Shown here: positions 1 to 61,714 of the stretch, piece after piece
How positions within the stretch are numbered: position 1 is the first letter of the stretch
Layout: the number at the start of each line of letters is the position of its first letter
Assembly (NCBI RefSeq): GCF_901000735.1
Contig: NC_081551.1
Span: 8,574,101 to 8,638,100 of the forward strand
Origin: Corylus avellana
Taxonomy: Eukaryota; Streptophyta; Magnoliopsida; Fagales; Betulaceae
Direction of reading: 5' to 3'
Length of the DNA stretch: 64,000 nucleotides
Program-made: the position numbers and the translations under genes
Notes under the pieces: generated by a model
What the model was told of the DNA's origin: nothing
The model's database searches: none
Seen by the model: only the letters and a program-made list of their open reading frames with translations

Positions 1-552
1 AATATAATAATAAATGCATTTAAATTTGGACTTATATATTGTTTAGGTTTTGCCCTATTAATACTTATAAATGCTATACAACCAAAAACTTTGACAATAA
101 GAAAAAAAAAAAAAAAAAAATTGACTACGTACCCTAGCTAGATTTATTTTATTTAACTAGGGTCCCCAATATCTAACAAATGCATATGAATATTTGGGAA
201 AAAATGAAAATGTGAATATGAAAAAAGAATGTAAACGGTTAAACAGCATCAAATAATGTAAATGTGAAAAAAAAACAAAAAAAAAAATTTTAAAATGTGT
301 GAAGTAAACCCTAAACCCTACTAAAAAAGATACGAAAACAACTAGCATGGATAGATGATAATTGTTGATGGTCCCCATTTGGAATAGTTGTTATTTTGTT
401 TAAGTTTAGGAAATTTTCATGAGTAAAAAATAAATAAATTACCAACAACCTTAGCTAGTAATTAAATTTGCATTTAAATTCCATTAAATATGTATGTGTT
501 TATTGATTACTTTTAAGTCGCGTATATTCGTCTTTAATGTCTGTAGACAATA
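1..552 (+). other. Leader of CACTA element A, no gene
   Basis: AT-rich sequence with no convincing coding region. It is recognisable because about 1-416 reads as the reverse complement of about 49125-49560 in element B, including a shared block at 361-405 (mirrored near 49140-49175). It therefore belongs to the element and lies between the missing 5' terminus and the transposase start codon. A purine tract (A-rich, 100-120) differs in length between copies. Confidence 0.75.
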
Positions 553-5873: not shown

Positions 5874-7194
5874 ATGAGTTGCAAGAAGAAGAGAAAAGCA
5901 TAGAGACAACCCACCGCGCGGTTGACATCGGGCGCCCAGGCGTCGGGCTCATCCCCCCGAGCTAATAAGAAGCAAGAAGGGTAAGGACCAGTACTTCCAC
6001 ATCAACTGGAAGGGCAGACCCATGCGGGATAGGACTTCGGCTTTGGTGGTGACATTTATGGAGATTCTCAGTATATTCCGGCCGAACCAGGCACATCCAC
6101 ACCTTTCACACTCGACTTCACAACGTTGAGCGATCTAAGGATTGTTTTACATGGCCATTTTGATCGGCCCCCGTACACCACTAGACCACAAGTGGATGAT
6201 AGTGATGAGACGCAACCCCCCGATAGCAATGTGGGTGATGAAGATGGTGTCGGGTAGGACACGCATCCCGATGATGCTGCTACACGCCAATTGGCGCACG
6301 ACGAGGTTCGTACTGTAAGTAAGTATATGTGCTAAAAATTGTAATATATTTTTTATTTTTTGATGTAGTTAGTTTTAATTTGTAACTAACTTGTTTGAAT
6401 CATTAATGTATTATGTGTAAATGAAAATAGCACCACCTGCTATCATGTTTTGAGTGTCAAGGCAAGGCACAAGTTGTGGGAGATCCCCGATGGGCAGAGC
6501 ATCATGTGTAAGTATAACCCCGCTTGGCAGCTTGTGGGACAAAGCGCTTCGAAATTTAAACGGATGACTGGATTGTTCGTTAGGAGCAGCAATTATGTAC
6601 AGATTAGTGATGAGTGGAAGAATGTACCGGAGTGTAGGAAGGAGGATATATGGGATGCCTTGATGGTATGTTTGAATTAAATATTATTGTATTTATGATA
6701 GTTATGTGTATGTGATTTTGTCAAATATATGCCTTATTGTTAATATAAATATTTTAATTTATGCAGAAGCACTTCTATGTCCCGCCTGAGTACGATTTCG
6801 TGGCGATAAAATTGGACGCCTTCCAAGATATGAGAAGCAAGCTTCAAACTTGGAAGTATGAATTTAAGCAGAGTCTTCGCATTTAGTTGGGCGATACTCC
6901 AGCGACAATGAAGGCTAGGGTAGGGGAACATGTGTTATCCACGTACAACAGCACGGACGTGGATATATTATTGGAGAAATGGTGTAGTGAAGAGAATTAA
7001 GTAAGTCACATATTTTATTGGGTTTTGTTTAGTTTTATTAAAACGAATGTGTTAGGCTAAAATATTAACAATGTTAATTGTGTTGGAATATGCTGCGTAT
7101 ATAGAGCGAATGCGGTCTAAGAACCAAACGCTTCACTGCACTGAGACGAAGAGCTTTGCCAGGGCTACACATGAAGAAGTATGTGTGTTATTTA

Positions 7195-39512: not shown

Positions 39513-42500
39513 TCAAATCATACGCTGCAGGGCTAAAGCCTCTGCATGCATAGTCTCGCGTATACAATCTGGGGGGTCATAAAGCCACACCCTATCTATC
39601 TCATTCTGCAAAGCCAAACTTGCTAGAGCATGGACAACTTTATTACCTTCTCTTTGTATGTGCCCCATTTTCCACGATAGGATAGAACGGAGAGCTATAC
39701 GCAGGTCTTTCGTAAGATGTCCCATAACACTCTCATCAGGCAGCATGGATGTCACAACATCCACGACCACTTTCGCATCTCCCTCCAATTGGACCTGCAT
39801 AAACCCCATCTCAGTGCACAACTGAGTCGCCATAGTAGCTGCCAAAGTTTTCGTTGCTGTGGGTTCCAAAAATCCCAGTCGAGTCACACATTTCGCCGCC
39901 CACATTCTGCCTTGATGATCCCGGATAACGACCTCGAGACCCACACGACCTGTTTGATGATTGACTCCGGCGTCCCAATTGGCCTTGACCCACCCAAGTG
40001 GAGGATTTTTTTCCAGATACATGAAGTCGGAGTGTCATAAGCACGCTCCTGCCATACCGCCTCATCCCGCACCAAGTGAAAAGAATCCACCACCTAGGTT
40101 GCTTGCTGGACGATAATATTGGGGTGCAGAAATCCACCATCATGAACCATCTCATTTCGCCTAAGCCATATGCGACGAGCAATGCCAGCAAGCTGAGCAA
40201 ATTCTGTTTGGTCACAACACATCAGCATTCCTTCCACCACTTGGAAGAAAGACGGCCTTTCAAGACAGCTTTTTTGGAATTTAACACACCCAACACTCCA
40301 AACATCCCTGGCCGCAGGACATTGCCACAACACATGAAAGGTTGTCTCCTCCTCTCTTTCACAGACTGGACAGCAAGGGTCCATGGTCACTTTCCGGGAA
40401 CAGAGATTTGCTTTTGTAGGCAAAATCTCATGGCAGGCACGCCAAAGGAAATGTTTCTCCGCATTTGTTATTTTTTGCCGCCATATTGATCTCCACACAT
40501 CACTGTGACGGACCCGAGAGGAGCCATCCGCCTTTGAAGCCGCTTCTCGCTCTTTTTCTATATGGTAAGCACTTCGCACCGAAAAGAGTCCTTTTGCTGT
40601 TCCCCTCCATATAAGCGTATCTTCTTGGTTCGTAGTACTCAGAGGTAATGATAGTATAGAGATATTCCCCTCTCGAGAGAACAACCTCTCCAATAATGCT
40701 TAATTCCACCAGTTTGTGTCTGCAGCAATGAGTTGGCTAACTGCAGCATTTGGGTCAAGTATCGATGGAGGTGAATACACCGTGTAAGTGGTAGGTCTAG
40801 GAAGCCACCTATCCTTCCATATTCGGATTGTTTTGCCGTTTCCAACTCTCCACACTAGACCATTTTTGACTAGATCACTAGACCCTTGGATACTCCGCCA
40901 TGCAAAAGAAGGCCGGTTTCCTAAAGAGGCTTCAAGAACCATGCATGTCAGATAGTATTTTCCCTTCATAATCCGTGCAATGAGACTGTTCGGTGTTTTC
41001 CAAAGACGCCAAATCTGTTTCGCTAAAAGAGCTTTGTTAAAACAAACAAAATCACGAAATCCCATACTTCCATGATTTTTAGAAAGGCCCATCTTGCTCC
41101 AACTCATCCAATGGATTTTTGTCTCATTTGCTTGATGGTCCCAAAAAAATCTCACCATGACGGAATTAATCTCCTTGCAAAGAGCCTTTGGAAGTCGGAA
41201 CACACCCATACAAAAAGTAGGTACTGCTTGAATCACAACCTTTAACAGAATTACTTTCCTCGCCTGTGACAAGAACTTAAGCTTCCAATCCTGGAGGCAC
41301 TTCCACACCCTCTCCTTGATACATTTAAAAGCGCCGATGCAAGATCTTTCCACCAAAGTGGGCAACCCCAAATAAGTATCATAGCGCTGCTTTGTCGGAA
41401 TCCCAGCTATCTCTTGGATGTGTTGCTTGTCTTCATTTAAGGTGTTTCTACTAAAAAATATAACCGTCTTATTTGCATTCATTTTCTGCCCCAACGCCTC
41501 TTCATATTTTTGTAGAATAGAGGTCAGATGGTTCCATTGAGACAAATTGGCCCTGCAAAACAATAATCTGTCATCGACGAAAAATTGGTGGCTTAATGCC
41601 GGCCCCTTCTTCGATGTAGGTACCCCTGTCAACCTTCCATCCATGTTGGCTTGGGAGAACATAGCACTCAGAGCTTCTGCACAAATAAGGAACAAGTAAG
41701 GTGATATTGGGTCGCCTTGTCGGAGACCTCTAGATGGGGTGATGAGGCCACAAGGGTTCCCATTCACCAAAATCGAATTTGCACCGTCTTAACACACATC
41801 ATGATTAGGGAAATCCACCTCCCATCAAAACCCATCCGCTGCATCACGGCTTCTAAAAAACCATTCCACCCTATCATAGGCCTTGCTCATGTCGAGCTTA
41901 ACGGCCATAAAACTCTTTTTTCCCCTCATCCCTGAGTGCATCGTATGTAGTGTTTCATAGGCCAGTAATACATTATCGATGATAAGGCGTCTCGGAATAA
42001 AGCACTTTGCGTGTGAACTTTGGGCCATTATAGCCCAAATTAGTTAATCCAGATGCCTTTAGAGTTTGTCGGAAGGCCTCCATGAGATAATGTTGCCTTC
42101 TGTTTCTCCCAAAATTTTCAAACATTGTCAATACTTCATTAAAATCATAAGAACTATCCACGGGTCAGGGGCTAAACGAGCCAAAACCTTTAAAAGTTCC
42201 CATGCTTCATGTCTTTCTGCCGGGTCCGGGTGGTCGTAGAATCCGGTGAATTTCCATTTTAAATCCCGATGTTGGTCATGAACTATAGCATTTATGTGTC
42301 TATGACTATAGTTTTGAACCTCCACCTCCCATCCTTCCTCCCAAAATAAAGCCAAGCCCCCACTTCTCCCCACACAATCCACCACAAATATGTTAGAAAA
42401 ATCCACCTTCATACGAATTGTCTCTAATTTTTGTTTACGTAATTTAGTCTCCATTAAGAAGACTAAATTGGGACGCTTTTCTTTCACCATCCGACGAAAA

Positions 42501-42556
42501 TCTTGAACTGTTAAAGGGTTCTCAAGCCCCCGATAGTTCCAACTAAGGATATTCAT
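39513..42556 (-). pseudogene. LINE ORF2: endonuclease-RT-zf-RVT-RNase H, broken
   Basis: Starts at 42556 with MNILSWNYRGLENP and METKLRKQK, the endonuclease/exonuclease/phosphatase fold. The frame shifts near 42160 (DFNEVLTMFENFGRNRR, GYNGPKFT) and then jumps at about 42026 to the RT finger/palm region (FIPRRLIIDN, AVKLDMSKAYDRVEW), so the end of the endonuclease and the start of RT are deleted. The RT continues in 41770-40700 with GLRQGDPISPYLFL and the catalytic FVDD (in the SHQFFVDDRLLF block). zf-RVT lies at 40693-40094 (WRACHEILPTKANL, CPVCEREEETTFHVLW) and RNase H at 40022-39513 (VKANWDAGVN, LEGDAKVVVD, REGNKVVHALA). At least three frame breaks preclude a full protein. Confidence 0.88.
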
Positions 42557-42695
42557 TGCGGTCGGTGGGGCTGGTCACCAGCCACCGCCATCCCCGAACC
42601 GTCACAAGAGTCACTAGTAATACTCACAGAGTAGGCCTTTTTTCAGTCCCCTTTAATTTTCCTCCATCTCCAACTACGTATTTCTTACAGCTGGT

Positions 42696-44159
42696 TTAAG
42701 GAGTGATCATAAGTTCAAGAGGTGTCACCAACTCGTCTCTACTTTTTCTCTTCCATGAAGAGAGATTCCCTCCCTGGCAACTTGTATTCATTTCCTTCCC
42801 TGATATTTTCCCCTCCTTGGCGTCCTTCAAAGAATTTTCTACCTCTGTTAGCACCAGACCCGTGTATGGACCCCCATCATTAGTGAATAGGCCATCAAAG
42901 TCCACAGCCTGTTTTGGTTGAATGTCACTGTTCATGTCTTCCTTTGCCTGCCACGTACCCTTAGTTGTTGTCAACCGTCTGTTGCTATAAGGGGATAAAT
43001 CTACCAGCATGTGTCTCTTAATGCCTCTTGATTTTTTCCTTCCAGAGAAAATTTTCCATGCGCCTTTGTTCTGGTAGATTGAAATTCAAATTGTTCTTGC
43101 ATAACACCCACATTAATTCTTTCCTTACCTGGTTGGCTTGTGCTAAGGAAACTCTAGTCATTTCTCCCCATATTCCCGAATAATGGCTCGCGGTTTTTGT
43201 GGGATATGTTTTTTGACTTTCCCGATTGGGCTCACCGGTTTCTTCATCCTTACCGGATTCCTCGACTCCTCGTTTCTGGCCCCCGCTTCTACGCCCAGTT
43301 TGGTCTGCCCTTTTCGGCCGGTCTTCTTCCGCTTGTCGTGGATATCTATCTGCATGCCAGTCCAGAATTCGGTCACCACTTCTAGTTGGAGATTGTGCCC
43401 TTATCCATGGTCCATTCTGGGTAAAGTCCTCTTGATTTCTCATTGTTTTCCTCTTTAGACACCCCTCTGGCCCATGGCAAATTACACCACAATGAAAACA
43501 AAATTTTGGTAACCTTTCATATTGGAAAACAATCAAATGTGATTTCCCTTCATATTTCATCATCCGGCCCCGGGGGAGAGGTTTATACAAATCAACCATG
43601 ATCTTCACTCTGAGAAATTCCCCCCATCCAATCCATCTCTATCAGTGTCAACTTTCTCGACTATCCCAACCGAGGCACCAAGTTTGAGACCGACTTCTTT
43701 GCCCATACATGCCAAAGGTAACTGTAGCATTCTCACCTAGAAAGCGGCTTTGTCAAAACTGAATTCTGAGGGCGAAGATTGGCCGTCAAAGTCTTCCACC
43801 AGAAAAAGATTTCCTTCGAACACCCAGGCTCTTCCTTCTAAAACTCGCTTCTTATCAGTGGCATGTTCAAATCCAATCAAGAACAAATTCCCTCCCAAAA
43901 CTTTGAAAGTCAGAGCCCCGATTAATCGCCACCATCGCTTAAGCGTAGTTTTGATGGTCTCCTTGCTCACTACTCGCTTCGACATCAATTTTCCCACGAT
44001 GCATGATTGTCCGCGCCTAACCACCTTTGTCATGTCCACTGCTTGAATCTGAACCTCAGCATCCTCTCCCTTTGACAATGAAAGCTTTGCCCAAAGGTTC
44101 GATAGATCCTCCGCCATTCTTACAAATCGATGAAAAATGAATACTCTAAAAAATCTCAC
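42696..44159 (-). pseudogene. LINE ORF1: DUF4283 and zinc knuckle, frameshifted
   Basis: An RNA-binding, gag-like protein of plant L1 elements. The first block (44159-43737) carries the DUF4283 domain (LWAKLSLSKGE, GALTFKVLGGNLFLIGFEH, RAWVFEGNLFLVEDFDG). The second (43608-43018) has DLYKPLPRGRMMKY and a CCHC knuckle, C-x2-C-x4-H-x4-C (CFHCGVICHGPEGC), then a basic, proline- and serine-rich tail. The third (43010-42696) continues the C terminus. The blocks are separated by frame changes near 43735-43610 and at 43018. The order ORF1 then ORF2 on the same strand is normal for L1. Confidence 0.83.
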
Positions 44160-44226
44160 AAAGATTATGAGAAACTACTCCTTCTCCTCTAGGACTGGGC
44201 TAGAGAGAAAACCATCCTTATCATAC

Positions 44227-44724
44227 GAGGGGAGATTTTATGGTTGCCTTTAGCTGCTAGCATGTTATTGCCATTTAATAAAATAGTAGTATTTAATTGT
44301 CTCTTTTATTTTTATAATAAATTTAGTTTGTCATTATAAAATATTTTACCATTTTCTAATCGCACTCCATGATTGTCCAAAACCATCTTAAATTGATGAG
44401 ACACGTCACACACACACCATTTTATACTTTTAATTTTCTTAAAATTTAAAACTTAAATTTTTATTTTTTATTTTTATTTTTTTGGACATTAAATTGTGAG
44501 AATTGTGTATGGGTTGATTATAATCCCTCAAACCCAATTTAGGGCCGTTTGGAAGTGGGATTTCAATAAGTGTAATTTTAAAAATTGCGTTTTTAAAATC
44601 ACTTTTTTTTAAAAAAAAATTGCACAAGCATTTAGTAAAACATGTTAATAAGTATTTTTTAATTTTTTTTTTTTTTATCAATTGAGTGTTTGAATAACAT
44701 TAACATATAATTGCGGTTTCATGA
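44227..44724. other. Left flank of CACTA element B, part of an older MITE
   Basis: From about 44541 (AGGGCCGTTTGGAAGTGGGATTTC ... AAAATTGCGTTTTTAAAATCAC) the sequence resembles the arm of a common plant MITE. The other arm lies beyond element B (56150-56340: CAATGCGCTTTTAAAATCACAATCTC...CACCCTCAAGCAGACACT). Element B therefore appears to have inserted into this MITE. Between 44240 and 44540 nothing is recognised. Confidence 0.5.
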
Positions 44725-45035
44725 CACTACAAAAAAACCATTTTTTCCTGACTGAAAATTTCTGACGTTTTATGGTGTTTGACACGTCGGAAAATTTTTC
44801 TGACGTGTGTTGACTGTCAGAAGCATAGGTGTCAGTAAAAATTTTTTTTTCTGACGTGTTAGTAGTTAGAACGTCAGAATTTTCTGACGTTTTATTATAT
44901 TAGATGTCAGAAAATTTTCTGACGTGGCAGAAATCCCACGTCAGAATATTTTTTGACGTGGAAGAAATTCCATGTTAGAAAATTTTCTGACGTGGAATTT
45001 CTATCACGTCATAAATCTGCCACGTCAGAAAAATT
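44725..45035 (-). repeat. Terminal and subterminal repeats, 3' end of element B
   Basis: The TIR at 44725, then about ten copies of TTTCTGACGTG(G)/CCACGTCAGAAAA in both orientations to about 45025. The same block makes up the end of the fragment at 18489-19600. The ACGT core is also the core of plant bZIP sites; binding by the element's own TNPA-like protein is the more likely role, by analogy with Spm. Confidence 0.87.
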
Positions 45036-46261
45036 AGGTTTTTTTTTTTTTTTTCCTCATTAGTTTGTTTGTTTTCCTGATCATTAGGTTTTACGATTTA
45101 TTGTTTTTTTTTTCTCATTTGTTTTTTTTTTTTGAATTGACAATTTCATAAGCACATCTTCCAAAGCCAACAACTCTTAAAGACACGGTACATATGTCCT
45201 AGTGACTTGTAGTTGATGGATCTGGAACAAAAAAAAAAATTTTGAATGGTAGCAAATTTAGAAATAATGTCATGTTGCATTTGCCATTTGGCATGATAAA
45301 ACCATGCAGTTAGAAAGGACATATGTACAGAAATTCAGTTACATGTAATGAAATTCGACATTTAGATCTATCAACATAAGAAAGAAATAGAGAAAGCCAT
45401 GGAATAACTAGTAGGTCATTGAGTTAGTTCAAAAATTTTATTAGGATGCCAAACCAAAATGGAAAACAAAATCCAACCAAACTAATACGTCTTATATGAC
45501 CAGGTTATACATGGCAATATGCAGAGGCCATAGTATACTGGCAACAACATCCATGAGCTTCCTATACCGCTAATTCCAAAGGCTTCCTAGATAGCTTGAT
45601 GTATACTGGCAACAACATCCACGAGCTTCTTCACAATCTGCAGTAAGAAATAATTTCAAAAAAATATGTTACTCTACAAAGAGAAACAAATACTCTACTC
45701 TATCCTGTGGAAGACAAGACTGCATAAAGTAGAAACTTTCCTCCATGACCTACCACAAAATCTTATTAAATCAATAGGTATTTATATTTGATTGCCATCT
45801 ACATTCATAGAATTGCCATTTACATGAAGAAAGGTAGAATAATATCTATTTCACAAACAACAAGAAAACCTAACCAAAACTAGCAGTTTAATTTATAAAT
45901 TGAAGCATAAAGTACCTTCAAGAACATAGAAGCAAATTGATAATTGATTTTTTCTACCGGTACCCAATTATCATAATTTTTCCACTTCATAAAGAATAAC
46001 AAGTGCTCATAGTTACAAGAGGCCCAACCTATTAAACCCTAAACGAAGTATTGATTAAACATCCATCAAATGCAACTTACTATTTATCATATAGACATAA
46101 TTACAAGTATCACAAACATGTAGTCTCTACGTCAATCATATACAACCAAACTATATATGTTACCATGAATATAGACTTAATTACATATAACATTAAACAT
46201 CAACAAAACAAGAACAAAATATATAATAGGTTTACCAACTACAAACTCACAGACAATGCTC
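45036..46261 (-). other. 3' noncoding tail of element B
   Basis: No coding region. About 45040-45957 is shared with 19378-18489 at high identity, and about 46050-46260 is shared with the tail of element A (8541-8780), which shows that element A has a different sequence beyond that point. It includes a short direct repeat, TAGTATACTGGCAACAACAT / GTATACTGGCAACAACATCC (45531 and 45601), with GAGCTTC following each. Confidence 0.7.
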
Positions 46262-48919
46262 AATCTAAGTCGATAGCTTCCTCACTCTCCAACTTCTCCG
46301 CATTACCTGGAGATGATAAAACAATCAATCAGGAACCAGTAGGTACCTTTCTTATCAGGATCTTAGGCCAAACACAAAAAATGGCACCATAACAACTTTA
46401 ACATATATACTAACCAAAATGACATTATTATAATAGAACAAAAAATGCACTAACTACAATTATAAATCATCATCAATGCAATATCTATCTATATATAAAT
46501 ATATATAGATATTCCGACTGGAAAATAATATCCTTCCTTCTAAAATTAGACGCAAACACAATGCTAATGTTTAGTAGTAGAAATAATAACAAATATCATC
46601 GGGGTCACTATCAACAACAACAACATAAAAAACCAATACTAATTCCAATCAAATGAATCACCAAACCAATGAAGAACAAAACATTTTGCAACAAGAGTGT
46701 CCATATATATATTCAAGAAAACCCAAAAAAAAAAAAAAAAACAAATTGCATTACCTGATCCACTCCCCACCGACGATCTCACCACCAAACGGGCTGCAAA
46801 TTCTTTGTCTGGGACATCCTTAACTCGAGTCATATCGGATGAGGACCTCGACTATAACATGGACTCAAGCTGAGGAAAACGTGCCTCATACGAAGTGTTC
46901 ATACTAGCCTCACTCTCAGTTAGCCGCACAGCAACCTGCTCTCGTTGTGCATTTAACAGCGCAGCTATCTCTGCCCTATGCCTCTCCCTTTCAGCTTGCT
47001 ACGCCGCTGTCTGCTCTCCCTGTGTCTCTAGAAGCACATTCATCTCCTGCTTGTGCTTCTCCCGCTCAGCTTGTAGTGCAGCTTCTATCATTTCTGGGAC
47101 ACCAAAGCTCCCAAGAGGTTGTGACCGTGGCGCGACTGGTCTATAGTAGGAGTGGATGCTGCCACGTACAGGTAGTATACCTGCTCCAACTTGGCGAACC
47201 CGACTAGTGTACTCTGGCTTATTGCCGATCCCCCGTGCGTACGCATCGTCGGGTGCCCACCGTATGGTCCCCTCGGTTACAGATCTTGTAGCAGCAGGGT
47301 CAGTGGGAAGCAACTCCTTCGTCCTCTCTTGTAGAGTACACATTAAAAGAAGCAATTATAAATATTAAATTAAAAAACAAAGAAATATACATTAACCAAG
47401 ACATATCGGTTATTAGTAGCATACACATCTCTCCCTGACCAAATCATTTGGATATCCGCCATCCTTCTTCACGTGTGTGTTAATGTAAGACTATGCTCGT
47501 GTTGGCGGAGTCCCGGTATTTATGAGCCACATAAACAAATAAAACATAAACATAATCAACATAAATTATATATATATAACTGATCAAAAAATGCACATAC
47601 TTCTTCACTTCTTCATGTGTAGCCTTGGCATAGCTCTTTGACCCAGTGCAGTGAGGCTCTTTGTTCTTCGACCGGATTCCCTTCATAAATGCAGCGTAAT
47701 CCTACACAAATAACATTGTTAATAACTTAGGCTAACACATTCATTTTAATAAAACTAAACAAAACTCACTAAAATATGTGACTTACTTGATTCTCTTTAG
47801 TACATCATTTCTCCAATAATATATCCACGTCCGTTCTGTTGTACGTAGATAATTGTCCCCCTTTCCTAGCCTTCACTATTGCCAGAGTATCGTCCGACGT
47901 GATGTGAAGACTCTGCTTCAAGTCATACCTCCAAGTTTTATGCTTGTTTCGCATATCAAGGAAAGCGTCCCGTTTTATGGCCGCGATATCGCACTCAGGC
48001 GGGATATAAAAGTGCTTCTGCATATATTCACACGTATATTTATATTAACAATACATCATGTATTTGAGATAAATATATGAATATATAAATAATTATCATA
48101 AATACAATAATATTTAATTATAACATACCATCAATGCATCCCAGATATCTTCCTTCCTACGCTCTGGTACATTCTTCCACTCGCCGCTAATCCTTACATA
48201 AGTACTGCTCCTGACGAACACTCCGGTCATCCATCTAAACTTGGAAGCGCTTTGTCCCACAGGCTGCCACGCAGGGTTATACTCACACACGATCCTCTGG
48301 CCATCGGGGATCTCCCACAACTTGTGACATGACTTGACAATCAAGATATGGTAGCGGGTGATGCCATTTTGATCTACACCTAATACATTAAGGATTTGAA
48401 CAAGTTAGTTACTTATTTAAACTAACTACGTATTGAAATAAAAAAAATATTACGATTTTTTAGCACATATACTTACTTATCGTCCGAACCTTGTTCACCG
48501 CCAATGGGCGTGTAGCGGCATCATCGGAATGTGTCATGCGCGACACCATCCTCATCGCCCACATTGCTATCCAGGGGCTGTGTCTCATCACTATCATCCA
48601 CCTGTGATCCGGTGGGGTATGGGTGCCGCTCGAAATGGCCATGGGAAACGATCCCCAGCTCGCTCAACGTCGTGAAGTCAAGCGTGAAAGGTGTGGATGT
48701 GCTTGGCTCTGGCGGAGTATGCTGAGAATCTACATAAATGTCACCACCAAAGCCCACGTCCTGCCCTGCATGGGTCTACCCTTCCACATGATGTGGAAAT
48801 ATCGGTCTATACCCTTCTGGCTCCATATCAGCCCGAGGGGATGAATGTAACGCATGGGTGCCGGATGTCAACCGCACGGTCGGTTGCCTCTGTGCTTTTC
48901 TCTTTTCCTTGTAACTCAT
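46262..48919 (-). pseudogene. TNPA-like second CACTA protein (Transposase_24 type), nearly intact
   Basis: A counterpart of 5874-8540 on the minus strand and better preserved. ATG at 48919 (MSYKEKRKAQRQPTVRL; codon 10 is CAG here, TAG in element A). Blocks: 48919-48484 (N-terminal, acidic, one stop and one frameshift), 48400-48114 (KLWEIPDGQRIVCEYNPAW), 48023-47790 (KHFYIPPECDIAAIKRDAF, TDVDILLEKW), 47700-47600 (SKNKEPHCTGSKSYAKATHEE), about 47520-47420 (NTGTPPTRA, KKDGGYPND; one stop), 47340-46760 ([20 protein letters not shown], then glutamate-rich coiled coil with a TAG near 46999 and a second stop near 46850) and 46308-46262 (ESEEAIDLD, stop). Introns have GT/AG borders. At least four stops or shifts make a functional protein unlikely. 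Confidence 0.82.
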
Positions 48920-49103
48920 ATCTCCCTCCAAAATACGTTACGAACCGAATTAGTATTTAAAATAAGTAAATATGTAAAAGTATATGTAAAGTAATCACTC
49001 ATTTAAATTTTTAAACATATACTAGTTACTCAATTAATTATATATCATTTCCACAAACTACATATAAATTTTATGGTTAACTTAAAAAGCAATTACAAAT
49101 TAA

Positions 49104-49125
49104 TGTAATTTGTAATGAAAAGTAA
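49104..49125. other. Deletion junction replacing the transposase gene
   Basis: Reading the minus strand, sequence matching element A up to about position 416 (TTTAAGTTTA(A/G)GAAATT) is followed within about 20 bp by sequence matching element A from about 5687 (TACATTAATTTGTAATTG). The filler ACTTTTCATTACAAAT resembles both sides. Relative to element A this removes the whole TNP2 gene (about 4 kb once A's solo LTR is discounted). Confidence 0.8.
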
Positions 49126-49836
49126 TTTCTTAAACTTAAACGAAATAACAACTATTCCAAATGGGGACCATCAATAATGATCATCTATCTAGGCTAGTTG
49201 TTTTCGTATGTTTTTTAGTACCGTTTAGGGCTTTCTTCACACACTTTTTTAATCTTGTTCTTTTTTTTTTCTTTTTTTTTTTCCTTTCAAATTTACATTA
49301 TTTGATGTTGTTTAACCGTTAACATTCTTCATTCACGTTTAGCTTCTATCATTTTTCCCCAAAAGTTCATATATATATGCATTTGTTAGATGTTGGAGAC
49401 CCTAGTTAAATAAAATAAATCTAGCTAGGGTACGAAGTCAATTTTATATATATATATTTTCCTATTATCAAAGTTTTTGGTCGTATAGCATTTATAAGTA
49501 TTAATTGGGCAAAACCTAAACTATATACAAGTCTAAGTTTCATGCATTTATTATTATAAGTTAAATAAATAAATCTAAGCTAATTACTAGTTTCCGGATA
49601 TAACGGATCAAAATTAACCACATGGTTGTTCATATATATATACCACGTGCATACCAAATAACAATCATAACACATAGTACGAATTACTTAATTAATTAAC
49701 AAATTAACAATAAATAACTATCTCAAACAAAGCAAAAATTTAAATAAGTTATATATAATAACATAAATGTGAAATTGTTATATATAATATATATATAGCC
49801 GGCCATATATATACTATGTATACATATGTATTACCC

Positions 49837-49867
<31 letters not shown>

Positions 49868-50088
49868 CGGCCATATATATATAACAAAAAAATTGAAATG
49901 CATATATATAGCTAGCGAGGAACGACAGAGTGAAGCAATTCATGTAAATATATCAATCATCTTGCACAAAACCAAATTCATAATAATTTTCTTTTCAAAC
50001 GTATTACACGAAATTAGCACAAACATCACCCAAACTTGCAACACCAAATCCAAACCAAACAAATATATATATATAACCTTTCCGGATT
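49126..50088 (-). other. 5' leader of element B, no gene
   Basis: 49126-49560 corresponds to bases 1-416 of the window in reverse. 49560-50088 is AT-rich with TATATA tracts and two GGCCGGCC palindromes (49799 and 49865) bracketing a (TA)n run, which together could fold into a long hairpin. No coding signal was found. Confidence 0.6.
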
Positions 50089-50106
50089 CTCCCCCTCCCG
50101 TTGTTG
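50089..50106 (+). repeat. 18-bp direct repeat, left edge of cargo
   Basis: CTCCCCCTCCCGTTGTTG, identical to 55248-55265. Its last two bases overlap the first two of the primer binding site. Flanking bases differ between the two copies except for a following (G/A)TAT. It could be a target-site-like duplication, the end of a viral terminal redundancy, or microhomology used in capture. Confidence 0.85.
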
Positions 50107-50117
50107 GTATCAGAGCC
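50105..50117 (+). promoter_or_regulatory. tRNA-Met primer binding site
   Basis: TGGTATCAGAGCC is complementary to the 3' end of plant initiator tRNA-Met and is the standard minus-strand primer site of caulimovirids and many plant retroelements. It sits about 420 bp upstream of the first ATG of the movement-protein frame (50525), a spacing that fits a viral leader. Confidence 0.85.
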
Positions 50118-50524
50118 ATAAGAGTTCCGATCTCTTTGCTGCTTGATGTACACCCTGTTCTCCTTTGAACCCCCTGAGTATTGTCTTGCTCTTCTCCTCT
50201 TTACTTACCCCCTGTTAACCTTTCTCTGTGTCGAGATCCTAGTTGTTAGACGGTAGTCCACCACCCTGTCAGTTACTGTTGTAAGGAACGGTAGTTCACC
50301 ACCCCGTCTAGTCAGTTTGCAAATCCGTAAGTCCCGTTGAAAAGCCTGGGTTGGCGTGTGAAGGGCAGGTAGTAGGTACTGAGTGTTGGCCAAGGGTATG
50401 TGTGAATAGTTCTGGTTTCAGCCGCTTCGCGTCCAAGGGTATGTGTGGATAGTTTAGCGTCTAGGAAGGACATACTTAGGAACTTTGCCCAGTGTGTGAT
50501 TTTGAGTTTAGTTTGTGTGTCAAA

Positions 50525-51300
50525 ATGTGGAGATCTAATTCTTCTGTTTGTTCTAATTCCAGTTTACCACCTGACGTGGTTAATTTTGAAAATTTTTCTG
50601 TCGAAACTGATACTGATTTTAAATTTGATAAGTGGAATATCCCCAAGCTTAACGCCAAGGATGTTTACACTACTTCATGGTCTAAATCTGTCTTTAGATC
50701 TGAATATTTTGTCAAAACTGTTGAACAAACCTTTGCTGTTACCGGCAAAGATCAAACTATGACCTTATTTAACAAGAAATTCATTAACGATTCTCTTGCT
50801 AAGTTTATAAGTTTTTGCATGTTGGTTCTGTGCAAGTTGCGGTCAAGCCATTGACTCGACTTGGTATTAATACTTCTATTTTGTTATGCTTGCGTGACAC
50901 AAGATTTATTGATTTCAAAACCAGTATTCTTGGAATGATTCAATCATCCTTGTTTATTGGTCCTGTCCATTTTGATGTCTTCCCCAACATTTCTCTTGCT
51001 TTAAATGATATGCATATTTTGAAAGCTTTGACGCTTAATGTTTTAACTTCTGGTTATAATATGGAAGAAGGTAGCAGACCCCTTGCTATCATCTACCGTA
51101 TTTATTAGAAGTTGATGAAGACAAATCTAGATCCACAAGCTGTGATCAAGAATTCAGGTGAATCTACTTTGTTAATTCAAAGTTCTACTCAGAATGCTTA
51201 TATCAAAACTCCAAAAATGATTCGCTGTAATGAGATTGACCTCCCCAACGAGTGGCTTTTGGAAGGTGTTGCAAAACCTTCTCGAGTAGTAAACGATGCC
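50525..51300 (+). pseudogene. 30K-type movement protein of a caulimovirid, frameshifted
   Basis: In living relatives this protein opens plasmodesmata for cell-to-cell spread. The frame opens at 50525 and carries the N-terminal part to about 50850. A +/-1 shift around 50815-50850 moves the continuation into another frame, where the diagnostic core appears (VGSVQVAVKPLTRLG, then an LRDTRF block with its conserved aspartate, and ALTLNVLTSGYNMEEGSRP). A TAG at 51106 interrupts just after IIYRIY, and the same frame resumes to about 51300. Family membership rests on the order and spacing of these core motifs. With one frameshift and one nonsense codon it cannot be made as one protein. Confidence 0.75.
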
Positions 51301-53557
51301 TCTAATCTTGATTACATCCAGCAATACATGGATAGATCTGTCAAAATCAATTTTTCTGATTTAGGACTTTCTAACAGAATTGAAAGACCTCTGTTCGAAA
51401 GACCTCTGTTGGTTAACGAACGAAGGAATTCTTTTGCTGGTTCCACAACCTCAGAAGGATTTCGACGTCGTGATAAAGATGTGGATGAGTCCCTTAACGC
51501 TCCTTCTCCTCTTTGTCCTGTTAACCCTGATTTGAAACTCAAAGGAATTTCTACCGATTCCCCAGTTTCTTCTGCTTTTTACTCTACTAGAAATCATCTC
51601 CAAACGGATGACGAAGGTGGATCTATCTCTCCTTCTGCTTCTGATTTTAATGCTCCTCTTCCCACTGCTCATCATCAGTGTAATGTCATCACTGCAACTG
51701 CTCCCATCAAAGATTTCTTTTTCTATTATTGATTGGCCTGCTTTGTCCAAAGATTTCAGTTCAAAAGAAAATCGTGCTTTAAGACATGCTTACCGTGCCA
51801 AATATTCTGAAAAGGAACAAAATCTCATCAAGGTCAAATGGACTGAGATGATGATTAAGTCCCAAAAACATATTTTGTTTTTTGATTATCTTCAAAAACA
51901 TTTCCCTGTCGATAATGTTTTGAATGTTGTCAAAAATAATTTTGTCAAAGAAGATAAAACTGTTGTCAAATCTTCTCATCCTCCTCTTGAAAATACTCTT
52001 CTTGATGTCAACAAAATTGTTGTTAAATGTTCCCCTTTCAAAACTCATGATAATGATCCTATTACTAACGATAGGAAAATTATCGAATAAAACAATTGTT
52101 GTACCCAATCTCTGCATATTTTAGGACAACAATTGGACCGTATCGAAGAGAAACTTCCCTCTCTCTCTTCTGATCCAAAGGTTTCCTCTGCTCCTTCTAA
52201 AATTGAAAAACCCCTGATTTCTCTCCCTGATTCGAAAGAATCTTCTGGTTTGAAAACGACTTCTCAAATGAACCTTGAGAAAGTCAACAAATTGCTTTCT
52301 GAGTTAACTACTGCTCGTGCTAGTTCTTATGGACAAAATTTTGGTAACAAAAAAGTCTCTTCTTCTGATTCTGAAACTTCTTCTCAAGAATCTACTGATT
52401 TTGACATCAGAGTTCTTGAACAAAACTTTGGTAAGATTGAAATGGAGCCAAAACTCCAAAGCATCTTTGACGGATCTAAACCTTTTAATCTTACAAAGAA
52501 TTTTTATTCAAAAACTACTCCTCCTGATTTACAATTTGAGGAAAGGTTTCTCCAATCCCAATTCTCTGTCTCTGCAAATAAATTATATGAATGGAATATT
52601 GACGGTTTGTCTGAGCAAGAACTGCCCAATAAGATGAATCACATGTCCATGGTTGCTAATGCCTATCTCACTAATCACAATAAAAGCCAAGCTAATATTG
52701 TGGATTTACTTGCTACTGGTTTTTCTGGTACTCTTAGAAATTGGTGGGACAATTATCTCACTGAACTAAGAAGAGATCAGATCAGGAAAGCAGTAAAGAG
52801 TGATGAAGAAGGATTACCCATTTTCAATGAGCAAATTGGTATGGGTGAACCTGATGGTGTTAACTCCTTGATCTATACAATTATCAAACATTTTGTCGGA
52901 ACTTCTTCCAATATCACTTCCCGTATTTCTGATTATTTGAACAATCTTTGATGCCCTACTATGTCTGACTATAGATGGTATCAAGATGTCTTTCTTTCCC
53001 GTGTCATGGTTAGACCTGATAGTCAAAAACCTTATTGGAAAGAAAAGTTTGTTAATGGGTTGCCTTCATTATTTGCTCACAAAGTTAAAGATGAATTGAT
53101 CAGTTCTGACACTGGTTTCATTGATTTTGAAAACTTGACTTATGGTGATTTGTTTTCAACTGTCAAAAAACTTGGTATTAAGATGTGCATCGATCAAAAG
53201 ATGATCAGACAGCAGCTTAAAAAGGCCAAGAAAGCTAAGTATGAAATGAGAAATTTCTGTGAACAGTTTGGATTACCTCCTATTGCTCCTTCCAGAACGC
53301 AAAGGAAGAAATCTAAAGCTTTCATGAAATCACCCTCTCCATATTACAATAGTAACAAGAAAAGAAAATTTAATAAACCTAAATTTTCTAAACCTCATCC
53401 TAAATGGAGTAAAGAATCTAAATTTGAAAAATACATTTCAAAAAATAAATGCTTCAACTGTGGAGAAACAGGACACTATGCTGACAAGTGCCCAAAACCT
53501 CTCAAAAAGATTAAAAAAGAGATTAATGCTTTAAACATCAATGACGATGAAAAGTAA
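51301..53557 (+). pseudogene. Capsid-like (gag) region with CCHC zinc knuckle, broken
   Basis: Continues from the movement protein without a separate start, as in polyprotein-type caulimovirids. A frame change occurs near 51700-51730; after it one frame persists to 54733, interrupted by stops at 52088, 52949 and 53555. Features: a serine/proline-rich linker (51400-51690), a helical charged block (about 51770-51900), a central capsid-like part (52540-53150, with NWWDNYLTELRRDQIR and PYWKEKFVNGLP), a lysine-rich stretch (53300-53440) and a C-x2-C-x4-H-x4-C knuckle at 53450-53491 (CFNCGETGHYADKC). This knuckle pattern binds nucleic acid in coat proteins and gags. The three stops lie in an otherwise well-kept frame, so decay is moderate. 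Confidence 0.72.
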
Positions 53558-54733
53558 AAAATCTTTAGAATTTTTCAAAACAATGCCTTTTCTGATTATT
53601 CTTCTGATAATGATTTTCTATCTTCCTCTGATTCTAAATATCGCTCTGCTTCTGATATTTCTGCAAATTGTGTCAATTTTGGTTGTACTGAATCTTGCTG
53701 CAACCCAAAAACTTGTTCTGTCTTGACCAAATCAGAAGAACAAGAAGATTTGCATCTTACCCTGATTTCAAAAATTGAAAACCCAGATTTGAAAGAAGAG
53801 TATCTTAAAAAACTTAAGAAACTCATGACCAAAGATGTTGAAAAACCTGTTGGCACGATATCTCTTGAAGATACCTAGAAACGATTTTCAAAACAAAAAT
53901 CCAAGGTAGCTACTATCTCAGATTTGCAGCATGAGATTAGTATCATCAAGAAAGATATTGTTAACTTGCAACTTGCCTTACAAGATGTTAATACTGAAAA
54001 CAAAGATTTACAACAAAAGCTTTTGCTTTTAAATCTTAACCAATGTTTTCCTGGAAGTGTTTCTGATAATGAAACACCTGAGCATGATGATGAGGCTGAA
54101 TCCAATCATAAATCTTTGTCCAATGAAGTTAAGATTGTCAGTATGATCAGTAAACTTGTCCCTCCGAGATGGTATTCAAAAGTCAGAATTACCATTTCTC
54201 CTGATTATGCTTTTGATGTTTTTGCTTTGATTGATTCTAGTTCTGACTTGAATTGCATTCAAGAAGGATTCATTCCTAGCAAATATTTTGAAAAATCCAC
54301 AGAACGGCTGCATTCAGCCAATGGAAGCAAATTGCACATTGATTTTGAGTTAAATAATGCTTATGTCTGTTTCAATAATATTCATTTCCATATTTCTACT
54401 GTTCTTGTCAAAAACATGAGTGAAAGGGTAATTCTTGGGATGCCTTTTCTTGCTTTACTTTATCCATTCTCTGTTAACGAGATTGGTGTTTCAACTGTTA
54501 AATTTGGTGTTAATATTCAAATACCTTTTGCTTCAAAATTTGAAATTGATGTTAATAGGTTGGATATTAAGTTTAGGCAGTCCTCAGATCTAGAGTTGGA
54601 TAAGGACCCTATTACCATTAGAGTTTTGTCTTGCCTAAACACCCCCCTGACGGTCGTGTTTTCCCAGAATTCTTTGTTCATACCTATCCCCAGCACATGG
54701 CGCATATTATTATTTTTGCTTTGCAAAAAATAA
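53558..54733 (+). pseudogene. Retropepsin (aspartic protease) region, active site altered
   Basis: Follows the zinc knuckle in the same frame with one stop at 53876 and ends at TAA 54731. A leucine/glutamate-rich coiled-coil segment (about 53925-54040) precedes the protease. The active-site region reads FALIDSSSDLNCI; retropepsins have D-(T/S)-G, so the glycine (codon 54239-54241) is replaced by serine. The flap and C-terminal motif ILGMPFLALL is present near 54430. No reverse transcriptase motif follows. Immediately after this, the frame gives way to a different open frame overlapping its end (54631 onward). Confidence 0.72.
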
Positions 54734-54820
54734 TTTTGACATTATTTTGCATATATTTTATAAAAGTTTTAACCATTTTGGTTTTAATTACTTTTCTTTT
54801 GAATTTTTGCAGTGTCACTA

Positions 54821-55200
54821 TGGCTAGCAAAAAGGATAAAGAAAAAATTGGTTCAAAAGCTTTGACTATAAAATCAGAGTCCCCCTTTGCTTCTTCCCTG
54901 CCAATTTCCTCTGTTGCCATAACCAACAGATTTGCTCCATTTGCTCCCTCCATTCCTGATTCCCAAATGTCGTACTCAAGTACACTTGCCTCCTCTTATG
55001 ATCCATTTTTTGACAAACCAAAAAATCCCTTCATAAGGTATGATAAAACGTCTGCCTATATGACTCTCCCTTATTCCCAGAACTTGTTCTTTGTCGAACT
55101 TAATCGTTCTGCTTCTTCTAAATCTACCGGAGATATTGCCCTCTCCTATTTTCCCCCAAATTTTCTTGCTTTACTTTATCTTTTGTGGATTCATTCCTAG
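54821..55200 (+). CDS. Small open frame after the protease, unknown
   Basis: An ATG at 54821 opens 126 codons (starts MASKKDKEK, contains ITNRFAPFAPSIPDS and LASSYDPFFDKPKNPF). It is preceded by TTTTCTTTTGAATTTTTGCAG, which looks like an intron acceptor ending 8 bases before the ATG. I do not recognise it; its position, where RT would be expected, suggests the start of another viral frame whose remainder is lost. Its last 14 codons are replaced by a patch copied from the protease (55161-55180 and 55187-55209), so the present C terminus is not original. A protein has not been shown. Confidence 0.4.
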
Positions 55201-55209
55201 CAAATATTT
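55161..55209 (+). repeat. Scrambled patch of protease sequence
   Basis: 55161-55180 equals 54445-54464 exactly (20 bases, TTTTCTTGCTTTACTTTATC), and 55187-55209 equals 54266-54288 exactly (23 bases, starting GGATTCATTCCTAGC). The order of the two pieces is reversed relative to the source. Both source pieces lie in the retropepsin region. Confidence 0.9.
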
Positions 55210-55247
55210 CTCCCCTATCCCCTGCATCTATATGCATTCTGCGCTTC

Positions 55248-55265
55248 CTCCCCCTCCCGTTGTTG
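55248..55265 (+). repeat. 18-bp direct repeat, right edge of cargo
   Basis: Second copy of CTCCCCCTCCCGTTGTTG, followed by ATATATATATATATAT and element-B-type sequence. It marks the apparent end of the pararetroviral segment. Confidence 0.85.
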
Positions 55266-55680
55266 ATATATATATATATATACTTGTGAGGAGCTCTAGC
55301 AGGAGCTAGAAACGGAGGGAGAGAGGACGACGGCCGGAGATCGATGGCAAAGAGATGGCCGGCAGGTTTAGTTGCGGGCGGAGGATCACTAGAATCATGA
55401 GATCGAGAGAGTATACATACGGTGGAGAAGAGAAAAAAAAAAAAAAGAAGCTTAATATTACTCGAGCTTCAGCTATGGTGGAAGAAAGAAAGAAAAACAG
55501 AGAGAAAACAAAGAGAAAAAGGAAAAGTTTGGGCGGTCATGCGTGGTAGCTAGCTTCCAGTTGGGGGAAAGAAAAGATAAAATAAATAAAAAATAAAAAA
55601 TTCAAACGTGCCAGGCCTCTTAATTAAGAGGCATGGCGCGCAGCAGCTGGTCGGGAGAGATGGGATGGGTCTGTGCGGGG
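55266..55680. other. Purine-rich 5' region of element B
   Basis: GGAG/GAGA-rich sequence with A-tracts (for example 55432-55447). A plus-strand frame at 55355-55549 is lysine/arginine-rich low complexity with no domain. On the element's own (minus) strand this would be the promoter or leader. Nothing more can be supported. Confidence 0.45.
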
Positions 55681-56120
55681 AGGGACTCGAGGGAATTTCC
55701 TGACGTGCCATGTTTGGCACGTCAGGATTTGACGTGCTAGGTGTTGCGCGTCAGGAATATAATCAAGAAAAAAAAAATTATATAATTAATTAGCTATATA
55801 ATTGTCTATATATATATATATATATATAATGTTCTGACGTGGCACATTACCACGTCAGAAATATTCTGACGTGGCCACGTCAGAAATTTCTGATGTAGTA
55901 AATGTTGCCATGTCAGAAAATATATAATTTTTTAAGATTTAAAATATGTAAGAATTTTCTGATATTGTAGTATTTAACACGTTAGAAAATTCTGACGTGG
56001 TACTATTCACACGTAAGAAAAAAATTTCTGACGTGGTAAAATTTCTACATCAGAAAATTAATGACGTGGTAACAAAACATGTACTGTACCCACGTCAGAA
56101 AATGCTATTTTTTTGTAGTG
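55681..56120 (-). repeat. 5' subterminal repeats and TIR of element B
   Basis: Opens with a perfect 12-bp hairpin (55699-55710 / 55715-55726, loop TGTT) containing TGACGTGCCA/TGGCACGTCA, followed by roughly a dozen TTCTGACGTGG/CCACGTCAGAA motifs in both orientations to the terminus GTAGTG at 56120. A (TA)n tract (about 55807-55829) sits inside. It mirrors the arrangement at 44725-45035. Confidence 0.88.
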
Positions 56121-58010: not shown

Positions 58011-58041
58011 GCTCTGCTATTGACTTCATCAGCAGCTAAAA

Positions 58042-61000
58042 ATGCCTGCTTGGTGGGGAAAGAAGTCCGGCAAGAGCAAAGAACAAAACCCACTTAGCGC
58101 CCACCTCTATGCTTCCAAATCTTCAGTCAATAATGAAAGGGTCAAGGCCAAGGACAAGGAAAAGGCCAGCAGCTTCGACGAGGTCTTCTGCCGGAATTCG
58201 CCGCGTACCAGCAAGGATTTCGGTGGCTCCTCCGGATTTTCAGGTTTCGATTCCGATGGCGGCGACAAGGTAGGCCATCCGCTACCTCGGCCGTCGATTT
58301 TGTCCGGGAACGATCATATCCACGGCGCCGTGGTCGGTATGGGATCTGGATCGGTTTCGAGTGTGAGCTCATCTGGGTCATCGGAGGATCAGCCGGTTGC
58401 TCAGGAGCAGGCTCAATTCAGTCAGTTCAGGTGGGTTTTTGGAGCTTTGGAAGATTAGTTTTTGTGTGAAAATTTGGTTAATCAATTCCAGGTGTTTGAT
58501 TGATTAATTGATCATTTCTGGTGTTATTATTGATGTGTTTATTTGGATTGTTTTTAATTCAATTGATTTGCAAAAGAGGCACCTTTTTTTCCGCTAATTT
58601 TGTTGTTGTCAGAGTTCTGGTTGCTTTGCATACGGGTGATTTTTCCTGGTTTCCAATCCAAAATCAACATGTGGGGTGCTTTGTATATGGCGGTTTTTCT
58701 GATTCCCAATCGAAATTCGGCATATGGGTTTTCCGTCTTTTTCGCTGTCTCAGCCTTTTAAACCGAGTTTTGTTACTGCTACTCAATTCTCTCTCACAGT
58801 TTCTTCTTTTGTCAGATTTTGATAGCTTTGTACTGAGGTTTCCATCCTTACAACCAACACAAACCACGTGGATCTGCTGTCAGTTTTTTTGGCTCTGAGC
58901 CTCTTGAACTTAGTTTCAGTTTTGTCCATTTCTATATTCTCTCTGTCTCCCACCTTGACAGCCTAGCTAAGTATATGCCTTCTCTTGGCTTGTTCCCTCC
59001 AAATGGATGAGTATCTTTGGTAAATAAATGATTGGAAGTTTTATGTTTTATTTTTTATTTTTTGGTTGAGAAATGAAGCTGTAGCTATGCAAGTTCAATA
59101 ATTTCCTGGACAATCTAAATCTTGATCACATGCATATTCTGCCTGACGCTAAGTACTATCCGTTGTTAATTGTCCCTGTTTCTTGCTTCCATTAGCAACC
59201 ATTTCAGATATTTCCTGTCTTGCGTGTTTCAATGAACTAGCTCGTAATCTTCACACAACGAAGAAAGATGGCTAATGGAGTTTACTTAGTCTTCGTGTGT
59301 GACAGTATTTAACAATGGTTATGACCGTGTATTTTAGAGGTGGAAGTCTAGGGTTTGACCTCTCATAGTTGCGGCAATTTGGAAGAGGGAAAGGGGGGGT
59401 GTTTAAAAACAAAAAAACTAGATTTTTGAATGATTTCAATTTCAATTATTCTTCTCTAACGTAAGTGTGAATTATAACCAATTTTATTGTTCTGGATTGT
59501 AGAGGAATTGGTGATACCAAGACCAACACGAGGTCAAGAAGCCCCGGACCAAGCCCAAGGGGGCCCTCAAGCCCCACATCACCTCTTCACCTGCGGTTAT
59601 GCGGCTTGAATTTGGAGTCTCCAACGGGAAAGCAAGAAGACGGGAAGAGTCAATGTCATCGGCTGCCTCTTCCTCCAGGTTCTCCTACTAGCCCTTCTGC
59701 CTTGCCCAACACAAGAACAAGTGGAGTCGTTGAAAACACAACTTCTACACAATCCAATTGGAAGAAAGGAAGGCTTCTAGGAAGAGGGACTTTTGGGCAT
59801 GTGTACCTCGGATTTAATAGGTAATTTTACTGTTTAAGATATATACTTAGTACTTACCTAATCAAGAAAAGGGCAAATTGCACTTGCACCTTCTGTGGTT
59901 TGATGCAGTTTCATTGACACCCCCTAGATTTTCAAATTTTCTATTTATCAACAATTTTTATCCATTTGGAAACATATCAAAAAAGGATAAAGTGCACCTG
60001 CACCTTATGTGGTATCTTATTTTTAATTGAAACCCTTCTTATCATGCCTTTTAGTATATTTCCTTCATTTGGGCAATATACAGAAAAGTGTTATAGCAAC
60101 TGTTAGAACTAAGAAACTGGTTCTGTAGATAAATAATAGAAGACTTATGTAGCTTTATATATTTATTGAGCAACTCCATAGCTTTAAATTGTTAACTCCA
60201 TGACCTTGAGGTCCATGTGAGTTTCCATGTGTGCACCGATCGTGCACATCTGTTTCGGAATCAATATTAGACGCATGAAGTGCTCAGGTAGTGTGAGTGA
60301 CCCACATGGTGTTTCTTGTAAACAATACCTATCTTGGCATATCCACATGGACATGAAAAGAACTCAGCAGCAATGTCAATAAAAGAATTGTGGAAAAAAA
60401 TGGAGTAAGATTAGCATGTTTCATGTTTTCTTACTTTTCCAATTGTTGTATTTGCAACAGTGGAAGTGGACAAATGTGTGCAATAAAAGAAGTCAGGGTT
60501 GCTTCTGATGATCAGACGTCAAGAGAATGTCTCAAGCAACTGAATCAGGTAATATGTTTATTAGTATATTTATTCCCTTCAATTTTCACTTTTTAGTTGT
60601 ACATTTGAATTTTCACTTTCAGAGTGCAGTTCGTCATCTGGCAGTACATAAGATTTTGACTGAATTTTTTCTTGTCAACAGGAGATAAATTTGCTTAGTC
60701 AGCTGTCGCATCCAAACATTGTTCGATACTATGGGAGTGAATTGGTAAGAGTTCATCTCTTAAAGGTCAATAATATGTGCCCTACACATGAACAGAAACA
60801 CACTGTAAATATAGTTAGATTCAGAGGAACAGTGTGTGAAGGTTTTTTCATTTTCAATCTGTGTAATGGGGCCCGTTTGGCAATGGACTGGCCAAAGTCC
60901 CATTTTTTTTTTCAACTCTCCGACATTCTTATTTTTTATATCACATCAATCACTTTTTATTACTATTCAAATAAAAAACTCATTACAAAACAAAATTTTT

Positions 61001-61714
61001 TCACTTTTCCATACAAAAAATTCAAAACTTCTAACTACTTTATATCACATCAATCACTTTTCTATGAATTGCGAATACTGGACCCTGCTTTTGTAACAAT
61101 TCTGGATTACCATGTTCTCAGGGTGAGGAAACGCTCTCAGTTTATTTGGAGTATGTCTCTGGTGGCTCAATTCACAAACTACTTCAAGAATATGGTCCCT
61201 TTAAGGAACCTGTTATTCAAAATTATACCAGGCAGATTATTTCTGGGCTTGCCTACTTACATGGAAGGCATACAGTGCACAGGTATTTGGCTATTAATTT
61301 AGTCATGGTCCCTTAGTATTTTGCCCTTGGCATTGCAGCTTTGTCAGTTTCTTTATGATTATTTTTTGATAAGTGTTTCTTTATGATTATTAAGTAATGC
61401 GTTTTTCTTGGCAGGGACATCAAAGGGGCAAACATCTTAGTAGATCCTAATGGTGAAATCAAGTTGGCAGACTTTGGCATGGCTAAACATGTATAGTTGT
61501 CTTACCCCATAAACAGAATTCTAATTCTAGAAGACTAGGGGGAATAGTCAGAGTTCATGTTATTACAAAAGCGTATGACTCTCTTAAACAACAATATAGC
61601 CAAGAAAAGGAAGAGTGGAAATAAATGATATTCTTGTAATGCTGGTAATGGAAAATAATTTTGATTTTCACCAAAAATTTGAACTGAAAATAGTCATAAG
61701 ATTTTAGTTCTCCC

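Follow-up and report, generated by a model that had tools for sequence, protein, structure and literature searches.

The window analyzed here is a 64,000-nucleotide stretch of the Corylus avellana genome (C11:8574101-8638100, in a genome of 370 Mb and 12 contigs). It contains a CACTA DNA transposon, here termed element B, that spans positions 44725-56120 and encloses a block of decayed pararetroviral genes resembling those of Florendovirus (Caulimoviridae). Element B has the hallmarks of a CACTA transposon, namely terminal inverted repeats (TIRs), a 3-bp target-site duplication (TSD), and dense subterminal repeats. The features of the element and of the viral block are listed below in order of position; the component-B type is described further on.

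44722..44724, TSD, TGA, left; read from the sequence
44725..44737, plus strand, left CACTA TIR, CACTACAAAAAAA, 13 bp, perfect
44750..45040, left subterminal repeats of the TTCTGACGTGG type; from motif density
46999..48775, minus strand, broken internal gene region
49290..50066, left internal CACTA flank of the viral block, a genomic repeat (73 matches, self included)
50063..50075, TA-repeat at the left block edge; read from the sequence
50077..50088, 12-nt filler at the left junction; read from the sequence
50089..55265, plus strand, endogenous florendovirus-like block of component-B type, opened at the tRNA primer site; from Pfam and colinear copies
50105..50117, plus strand, primer-binding site TGGTATCAGAGCC, tRNA-Met type
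50803..51108, plus strand, movement protein (MP) fragment, PF01107; Pfam
51536..52090, plus strand, DUF7588 open reading frame (ORF) piece; Pfam
52091..52951, plus strand, DUF7746 capsid-region piece; Pfam and homologues
52952..53557, plus strand, Caulimovirus coat domain and CCHC zinc knuckle; Pfam
53879..54562, plus strand, aspartic protease piece; sub-cut-off Pfam and homologues
54820..55164, plus strand, 5' part of presumed ORF2, the remainder of which is absent together with most of the intergenic region; match to P0150 and viral copies
55209..55265, plus strand, terminal segment of the viral intergenic region, which stops at the primer site; from other viral copies
55266..55282, TA-repeat at the right block edge; read from the sequence
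55283..55690, right internal CACTA flank, a genomic repeat (47 matches for 55283-55700, self included)
55691..56107, right subterminal repeats; from motif density
56108..56120, minus strand, right CACTA TIR, the exact inverse of CACTACAAAAAAA
56121..56123, TSD, TGA, right; read from the sequence

The motif TTCTGACGTGG, counted with up to two mismatches, occurs at 41 per kb in 44725-45040 and 35 per kb in 55691-56120, compared with 0-0.8 per kb in five other counted stretches, so that its density at the element ends is more than 40 times that elsewhere. The 12-mer CACTACAAAAAA, allowed at most one mismatch, has four matches in the window, and its exact matches are confined to the two ends of the element, in opposite orientation. 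Shuffled sequence yields 1.43 such matches on average and four of 100 shuffles reach four, making a CACTA terminus alone weak evidence. An earlier, first-pass annotation of this DNA had reported CACTA termini at 44725 and 56120 with TGA outside both, subterminal repeats at both ends, and a tRNA-Met primer site inside, and all three observations hold.

No transposase family, including the tnp2-type PF02992, was matched by Pfam in six tested ORFs of the internal gene region, which we take, from its position, to be TNPA-like. A tnp2-type transposase is commonly missing from non-autonomous CACTA copies, and element B is probably such a copy. A second element of the same family, this one bearing tnp2, probably occupies window positions 3-2193, because the left flank of element B has a match at 3-263 and the nearby ORFs (553-2193) hold PF13963 (Transpos_assoc) and PF02992 (Transposase_21, tnp2) domains. 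This relative lies about 43 kb from element B and is a possible source of transposase.

Gene order in the viral block (MP, coat with zinc finger, aspartic protease) is that of Florendovirus. MP (9e-16), DUF7588, DUF7746, Caulimovir_coat_dom, and zf-CCHC all exceed the Pfam cut-off, which confirms the movement protein and zinc-knuckle capsid of the first-pass annotation. Its retropepsin falls below the cut-off (Peptidase_A3 16.5 bits vs 21.3; RVP 16.3 vs 20.7) and is backed by 272 homologues (E 1e-3 or better), several of which have RVP above cut-off. The capsid piece has 311 homologues at the same threshold; the best 120 of each set were listed. The viral reading frames have decayed, with gene pieces spread over three frames. 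Scans of nine block ORFs with Pfam revealed no reverse transcriptase (RT), an absence that the first-pass annotation had not mentioned. Neither the capsid piece nor the primer-site pattern had a match in IMG/VR.

The 54820-55164 segment, which we presume from its position to be ORF2, is a truncated match to the ORF2-like end of the protein P0150 (E 1e-15) and returned no relatives when used as a homology query. An AT-rich, intron-like stretch at 54733-54830 ends in TTTTTGCAG directly upstream of the ORF2 ATG, and P0150 retains the adjoining residues LLNFCSxTMASKKDKEKI. ORF2 might be expressed through splicing. In P0150 a single protein runs from the protease into the start of ORF2 without an RT, and it matches the window on either side of the gap, at 55% and 41% identity. 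Among the 120 listed protease relatives, sorted by motif, 40 run into the pre-RT linker, 9 pass from protease directly to an RNaseH-like remnant, 8 have another tail motif (two of these also the linker), and 63 are unclassified. Pfam scans of five of the nine relatives with this direct passage produced a weak RNaseH match in P0122, P0132, and P0136 and none in P0121 and P0150.

The same RT-less organization is found elsewhere in the genome. Copies colinear with window positions ~50090-55165 are present on C1 (L011, 88.8% identity), C2 (L012, 87.5%), C6 (L025, 81.8%), and C3 (L027 with L028, 87.9% and 84.2%), and they leave no space for an RT. All four have coat matches, and no RT match occurs across the L011, L012, and L025 stretches; the one in the L027 stretch belongs to a separate reverse-strand unit. 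The RT-less architecture is thus older than the insertion into element B, since four other places share it. On C1, the distance from the position equivalent to 55165 to the next intergenic end is ~1.67 kb (L011 9093 to L016 864), compared with 44 bp in the window, so the window copy lacks ~1.6 kb and a full unit would be near 6.8 kb. This size is arithmetic, with no sequence rebuilt, and falls inside the published florendovirus range of 5.5-6.9 kb.

A complementary class carries RT. L010 (C1) and L028 (C3) have RT and no coat match within their 9.9 kb, and in both the sequence passes from the equivalent of window position 52528 to that of 53711 across 24 bp (L010:6599-6624; L028:4549-4574). 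The RT-bearing unit of L009 (C4) skips from 52476 to 53711 with 64 bp between (L009:8901-8836), and the coat block looks to be missing from all three copies at one common breakpoint. Identity to the window across the leader and MP region is 90.6% for L010 (50089-52528) and 84.2% for L028 (50091-52528). In the L009 stretch the leader is part of the following array unit, so that the sharing of the leader is shown by L010 and L028. Partners of a bipartite virus were taken to be more than 87% identical in MP and more than 90% in the intergenic region, of which the window retains only ~60 nt, 85.7-91.9% identical to L009 and L010. On contig C3, L026-L028 (C3:19765900-19795600) form a compound array in which RT-less and RT-bearing viral pieces are adjacent, in both orientations.

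In the available part of PMC4241990, florendovirus component B encodes MP, coat protein (CP), and aspartic protease without RT, component A carries RT with CP partly or wholly deleted, and bipartite endogenous florendoviruses are described from Vitis, Oryza, and Sorghum. The two classes seen here fit this two-component organization, the coat block being absent from the three RT-bearing copies and retained in the four without RT. The window block resembles component B in having MP, coat, and protease without RT, in its putative 3' ORF2 homologue, and in its association with TA-repeats, and the RT-bearing class without the coat block resembles component A. It departs from component B in that the window copy is truncated in ORF2 with broken frames and several relatives retain the RNaseH-like remnant after the protease. 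We place the block among the florendoviruses on its architecture and homology rather than on an RT phylogeny or a named match, and the virus would have had a bipartite life style. By gene content, the block is also like eRTBVL2 and ePVCVL, which the consulted portion of PMC5491270 describes as non-autonomous, multicopy grass pararetroviruses with MP, CP, and protease and without RT and RNase H; several genomic copies exist here as well.

The CACTA paralogues show what element B looked like without the virus. The family is large, with 73 genomic matches to the left flank (49290-50066) and 47 to the right (55283-55700), self and overlapping matches included. We examined 31 of 46 non-self matches, as stretches of 3.3-3.4 kb for 11 and 601 bp for 20. 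In 16 of these 31, the left flank (to ~50065) is joined with the right flank (from ~55285) with 27-60 bp between, and the joining segment is TA-rich in 15 of the 16, L037 being the exception; L055 and L056 are identical rows among them. One paralogue (L049) is ambiguous at the join. Virus was found in 0 of 31 within the stretch examined. A terminus could be read in 7 of the 11 longer stretches, and the sequence outside differs in each. A 231-bp query across the right junction was matched end to end at the window only, 1 of 40 scored among 162 candidates, the other 39 matching on one side. The internal CACTA segments (45041-50066 and 55283-55690) matched in 0 of 20 ten-kb stretches, 13 of which have viral matches. 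Within reach of this junction search, the composite is single-copy. The virus is thus best placed as having landed in the existing TA-repeat of one CACTA copy, since paralogues have the empty site and the right junction is found only here.

The edges of the block have 18 nt in common (50089-50106 = 55248-55265), with a TA-repeat outside each. The right block end resembles what precedes the primer site in other viral copies, which places its stop at this minus-strand tRNA site. Ten other places end between ~6 nt before the primer site and its 3' boundary (L013, L014 in reverse, two in L016, and L061-L066), and eight of the ten directly abut a TA-repeat. This set is biased, as L061-L065 were chosen for matches running into the TA-repeat and L066 for stopping at the primer site; among the listed copies found by primer-site pattern, most continue past the site. 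The two L016 ends (864-940 and 6568-6650) lie 5.7 kb apart, both read TTGGTAT against a TA-repeat, have near-identical outside sequence, and probably reflect one event and a later duplication. The L016 and L064 ends read TTGGTAT and then the repeat, with TAT common to both sides. Two further intergenic ends, in L028 (at 8621) and L009 (at 5109, reverse), seem to depart from viral sequence close to the primer site or past it. There is precedent for this pattern: in the portion of PMC526188 consulted, endogenous rice tungro-like viruses have AT-repeats at 93% of ends and end at discontinuities. The available part of PMC4241990 similarly associates florendoviruses with TA-repeats.

Taken together, the locus is very probably a nested insertion, in which a TA-repeat of an already existing CACTA copy broke and component-B-like viral DNA, opened at the primer site, was inserted there by end joining. 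The CACTA element, probably non-autonomous, would have been present first at some site and would have suffered a break in its internal TA-repeat. The repair would then have used as filler a linear, RT-less florendovirus DNA of component-B type whose opening lay at the minus-strand tRNA primer site. On the left side the target would have lost a few tens of bases and gained the 12-nt filler, and the viral frames would have decayed afterwards. TA-repeats and filler without a TSD are as expected for end joining; both the repair pathway and the order of insertion relative to the element's last jump are inferred. The first-pass annotation had named a block that merely landed in element B as the outcome contrary to its proposal, and this is what the data show, the virus family inserting independently into TA-repeats elsewhere. 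It had anticipated a block-specific TSD in that case; none is seen at this locus, where the edges are TA-repeats and the filler.

Several observations weigh against this nested insertion. The 12-nt filler is absent from the joined paralogue flanks and from the sequence before the primer site in viral copies, and the block is short by ~1.6 kb of a full viral unit. Fourteen of the 31 paralogues have other left sequence and are uninformative on the empty site, and the uniqueness of the composite rests on the right junction, at 40 of 162 candidates. In the L013 stretch (C7), viral sequence lies ~1.6 kb from a CACTA-like 3' end, and L018 shows a weak match to a CACTA end, farther from the virus than in L013; because of these ends, viral pieces beside CACTA ends may not be unique to the window locus. 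Data from a single genome are also compatible with viral insertion before the element reached its present site. No CACTA 5' end was seen in ~17 kb upstream of the L013 3' end. The viral fragment at L013:2909-7126 ends exactly after the primer site and may be another case of virus inserted into a CACTA element.

Divergence was measured as Kimura two-parameter (K2P) distance. Over 50090-52500 the window differs from six viral stretches by 0.06-0.17, and over 52500-55165 from four RT-less stretches by 0.08-0.17, from L010 by 0.32 (420 bp of protease), and from L009 by 0.07 (897 bp). Distances to 11 CACTA paralogues in the flanks are 0.04-0.17. These values give the age of the families, not the age of this insertion.

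The enclosure of pararetroviral genes by a complete CACTA transposon, as first annotated, is real, and the capture that it implied is not supported, given joined flanks in 16 of 31 paralogues and virus in none of 31; on these empty sites we reject CACTA gene capture of the block. A composite mobile element, whose ends enclose the virus and which moved as a unit in at least one cut-and-paste event, is improbable. The intact TIRs, TGA duplication, and subterminal repeats that bracket the block would suit it, one such move would likewise leave a single copy, and transposase acting in trans is conceivable because of the probable tnp2-bearing relative in the same window. The empty sites, the lack of a second right junction among the 40 scored candidates, and the lack of a transposase domain in the six ORFs tested argue against it, and the earlier proposal of a chimera transposed as a unit, or of a vehicle for viral DNA, is left unsupported. 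One cut-and-paste move after insertion is conceivable, because its outcome in one genome would look alike, and nothing calls for it. Misassembly at the block edges, where TA-repeats are hard to assemble, is highly unlikely given that the join of viral primer site and TA-repeat recurs elsewhere in the genome and that the CACTA flanks agree with paralogues on both sides.

Two further explanations concern the block itself. Its tRNA-Met-type primer site directly follows a short terminal repeat, as would suit a long terminal repeat (LTR) retrotransposon or cargo brought in by one. The common ends are just 18 nt, no LTR-sized direct repeat is among the listed repeat families of the element, neither RT nor integrase was found in the nine ORFs tested, and the block holds MP and caulimovirus coat domains; on these grounds we reject an LTR origin, which we regard as the least credible of all. 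An ordinary monopartite virus that lost its RT after integrating here would account for the leader and MP region held in common with RT-bearing copies, including the 90.6% identity to L010. The same RT-less join of protease to ORF2 recurs at four other places and in proteins from other sources, and the coat block is gone from the RT-bearing copies at a breakpoint that they have in common. With the RT-less breakpoint recurring in independent copies, local RT loss is rejected and has very little probability.

A general mechanism for this genome can be offered as a tentative and rather doubtful proposal. The integrating florendovirus DNA would be linear, with its opening at the minus-strand tRNA primer site, and its end, TGGTAT..., would pair through TAT microhomology with broken TA-repeats, so that the bias toward TA would come in part from the viral end, beyond the fragility of the DNA. 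One such event would have produced a CACTA element that still has its ends and could carry virus if given transposase. A literature search found no publication combining caulimovirid integration, microhomology, and the primer binding site. The junction series of viral primer site against TA-repeat makes the integration mechanism testable by junction counts.

Element B is like other CACTA (En/Spm) transposons in its termini, 3-bp duplication, and subterminal repeats, and unlike them in carrying a viral insertion and in having no tnp2 domain in the six ORFs tested. Viral genes inside DNA-transposon ends recall Teratorn, a fish piggyBac-herpesvirus composite in which, according to PMC10175614, a complete herpesvirus genome is fused to an active transposon. 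Unlike Teratorn, the present composite was seen in one copy (right junction spanned in 1 of 40 scored of 162) and is passive and broken. No CACTA-caulimovirid chimera was found in a literature search of titles and abstract openings, in which the one paper mentioning both florendoviruses and CACTA elements was an annotation primer. Striking as it is, the chimera is best understood as a nested fossil, not as a transposon-borne virus, and it documents in a further plant genome what looks like a bipartite florendovirus whose components complement each other.

On the left, a degraded stretch resembling a long interspersed nuclear element lies on the minus strand at window 39513-44174, ~0.5 kb upstream of the CACTA element, and its ORF at 40700-41788 matches RVT_1. 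On the right, the ORFs at window 58024-61302, which by eye look like exons of a MAP3K gene, gave no Pfam match in the one ORF tested. The CACTA element ends ~1.9 kb upstream of these ORFs.

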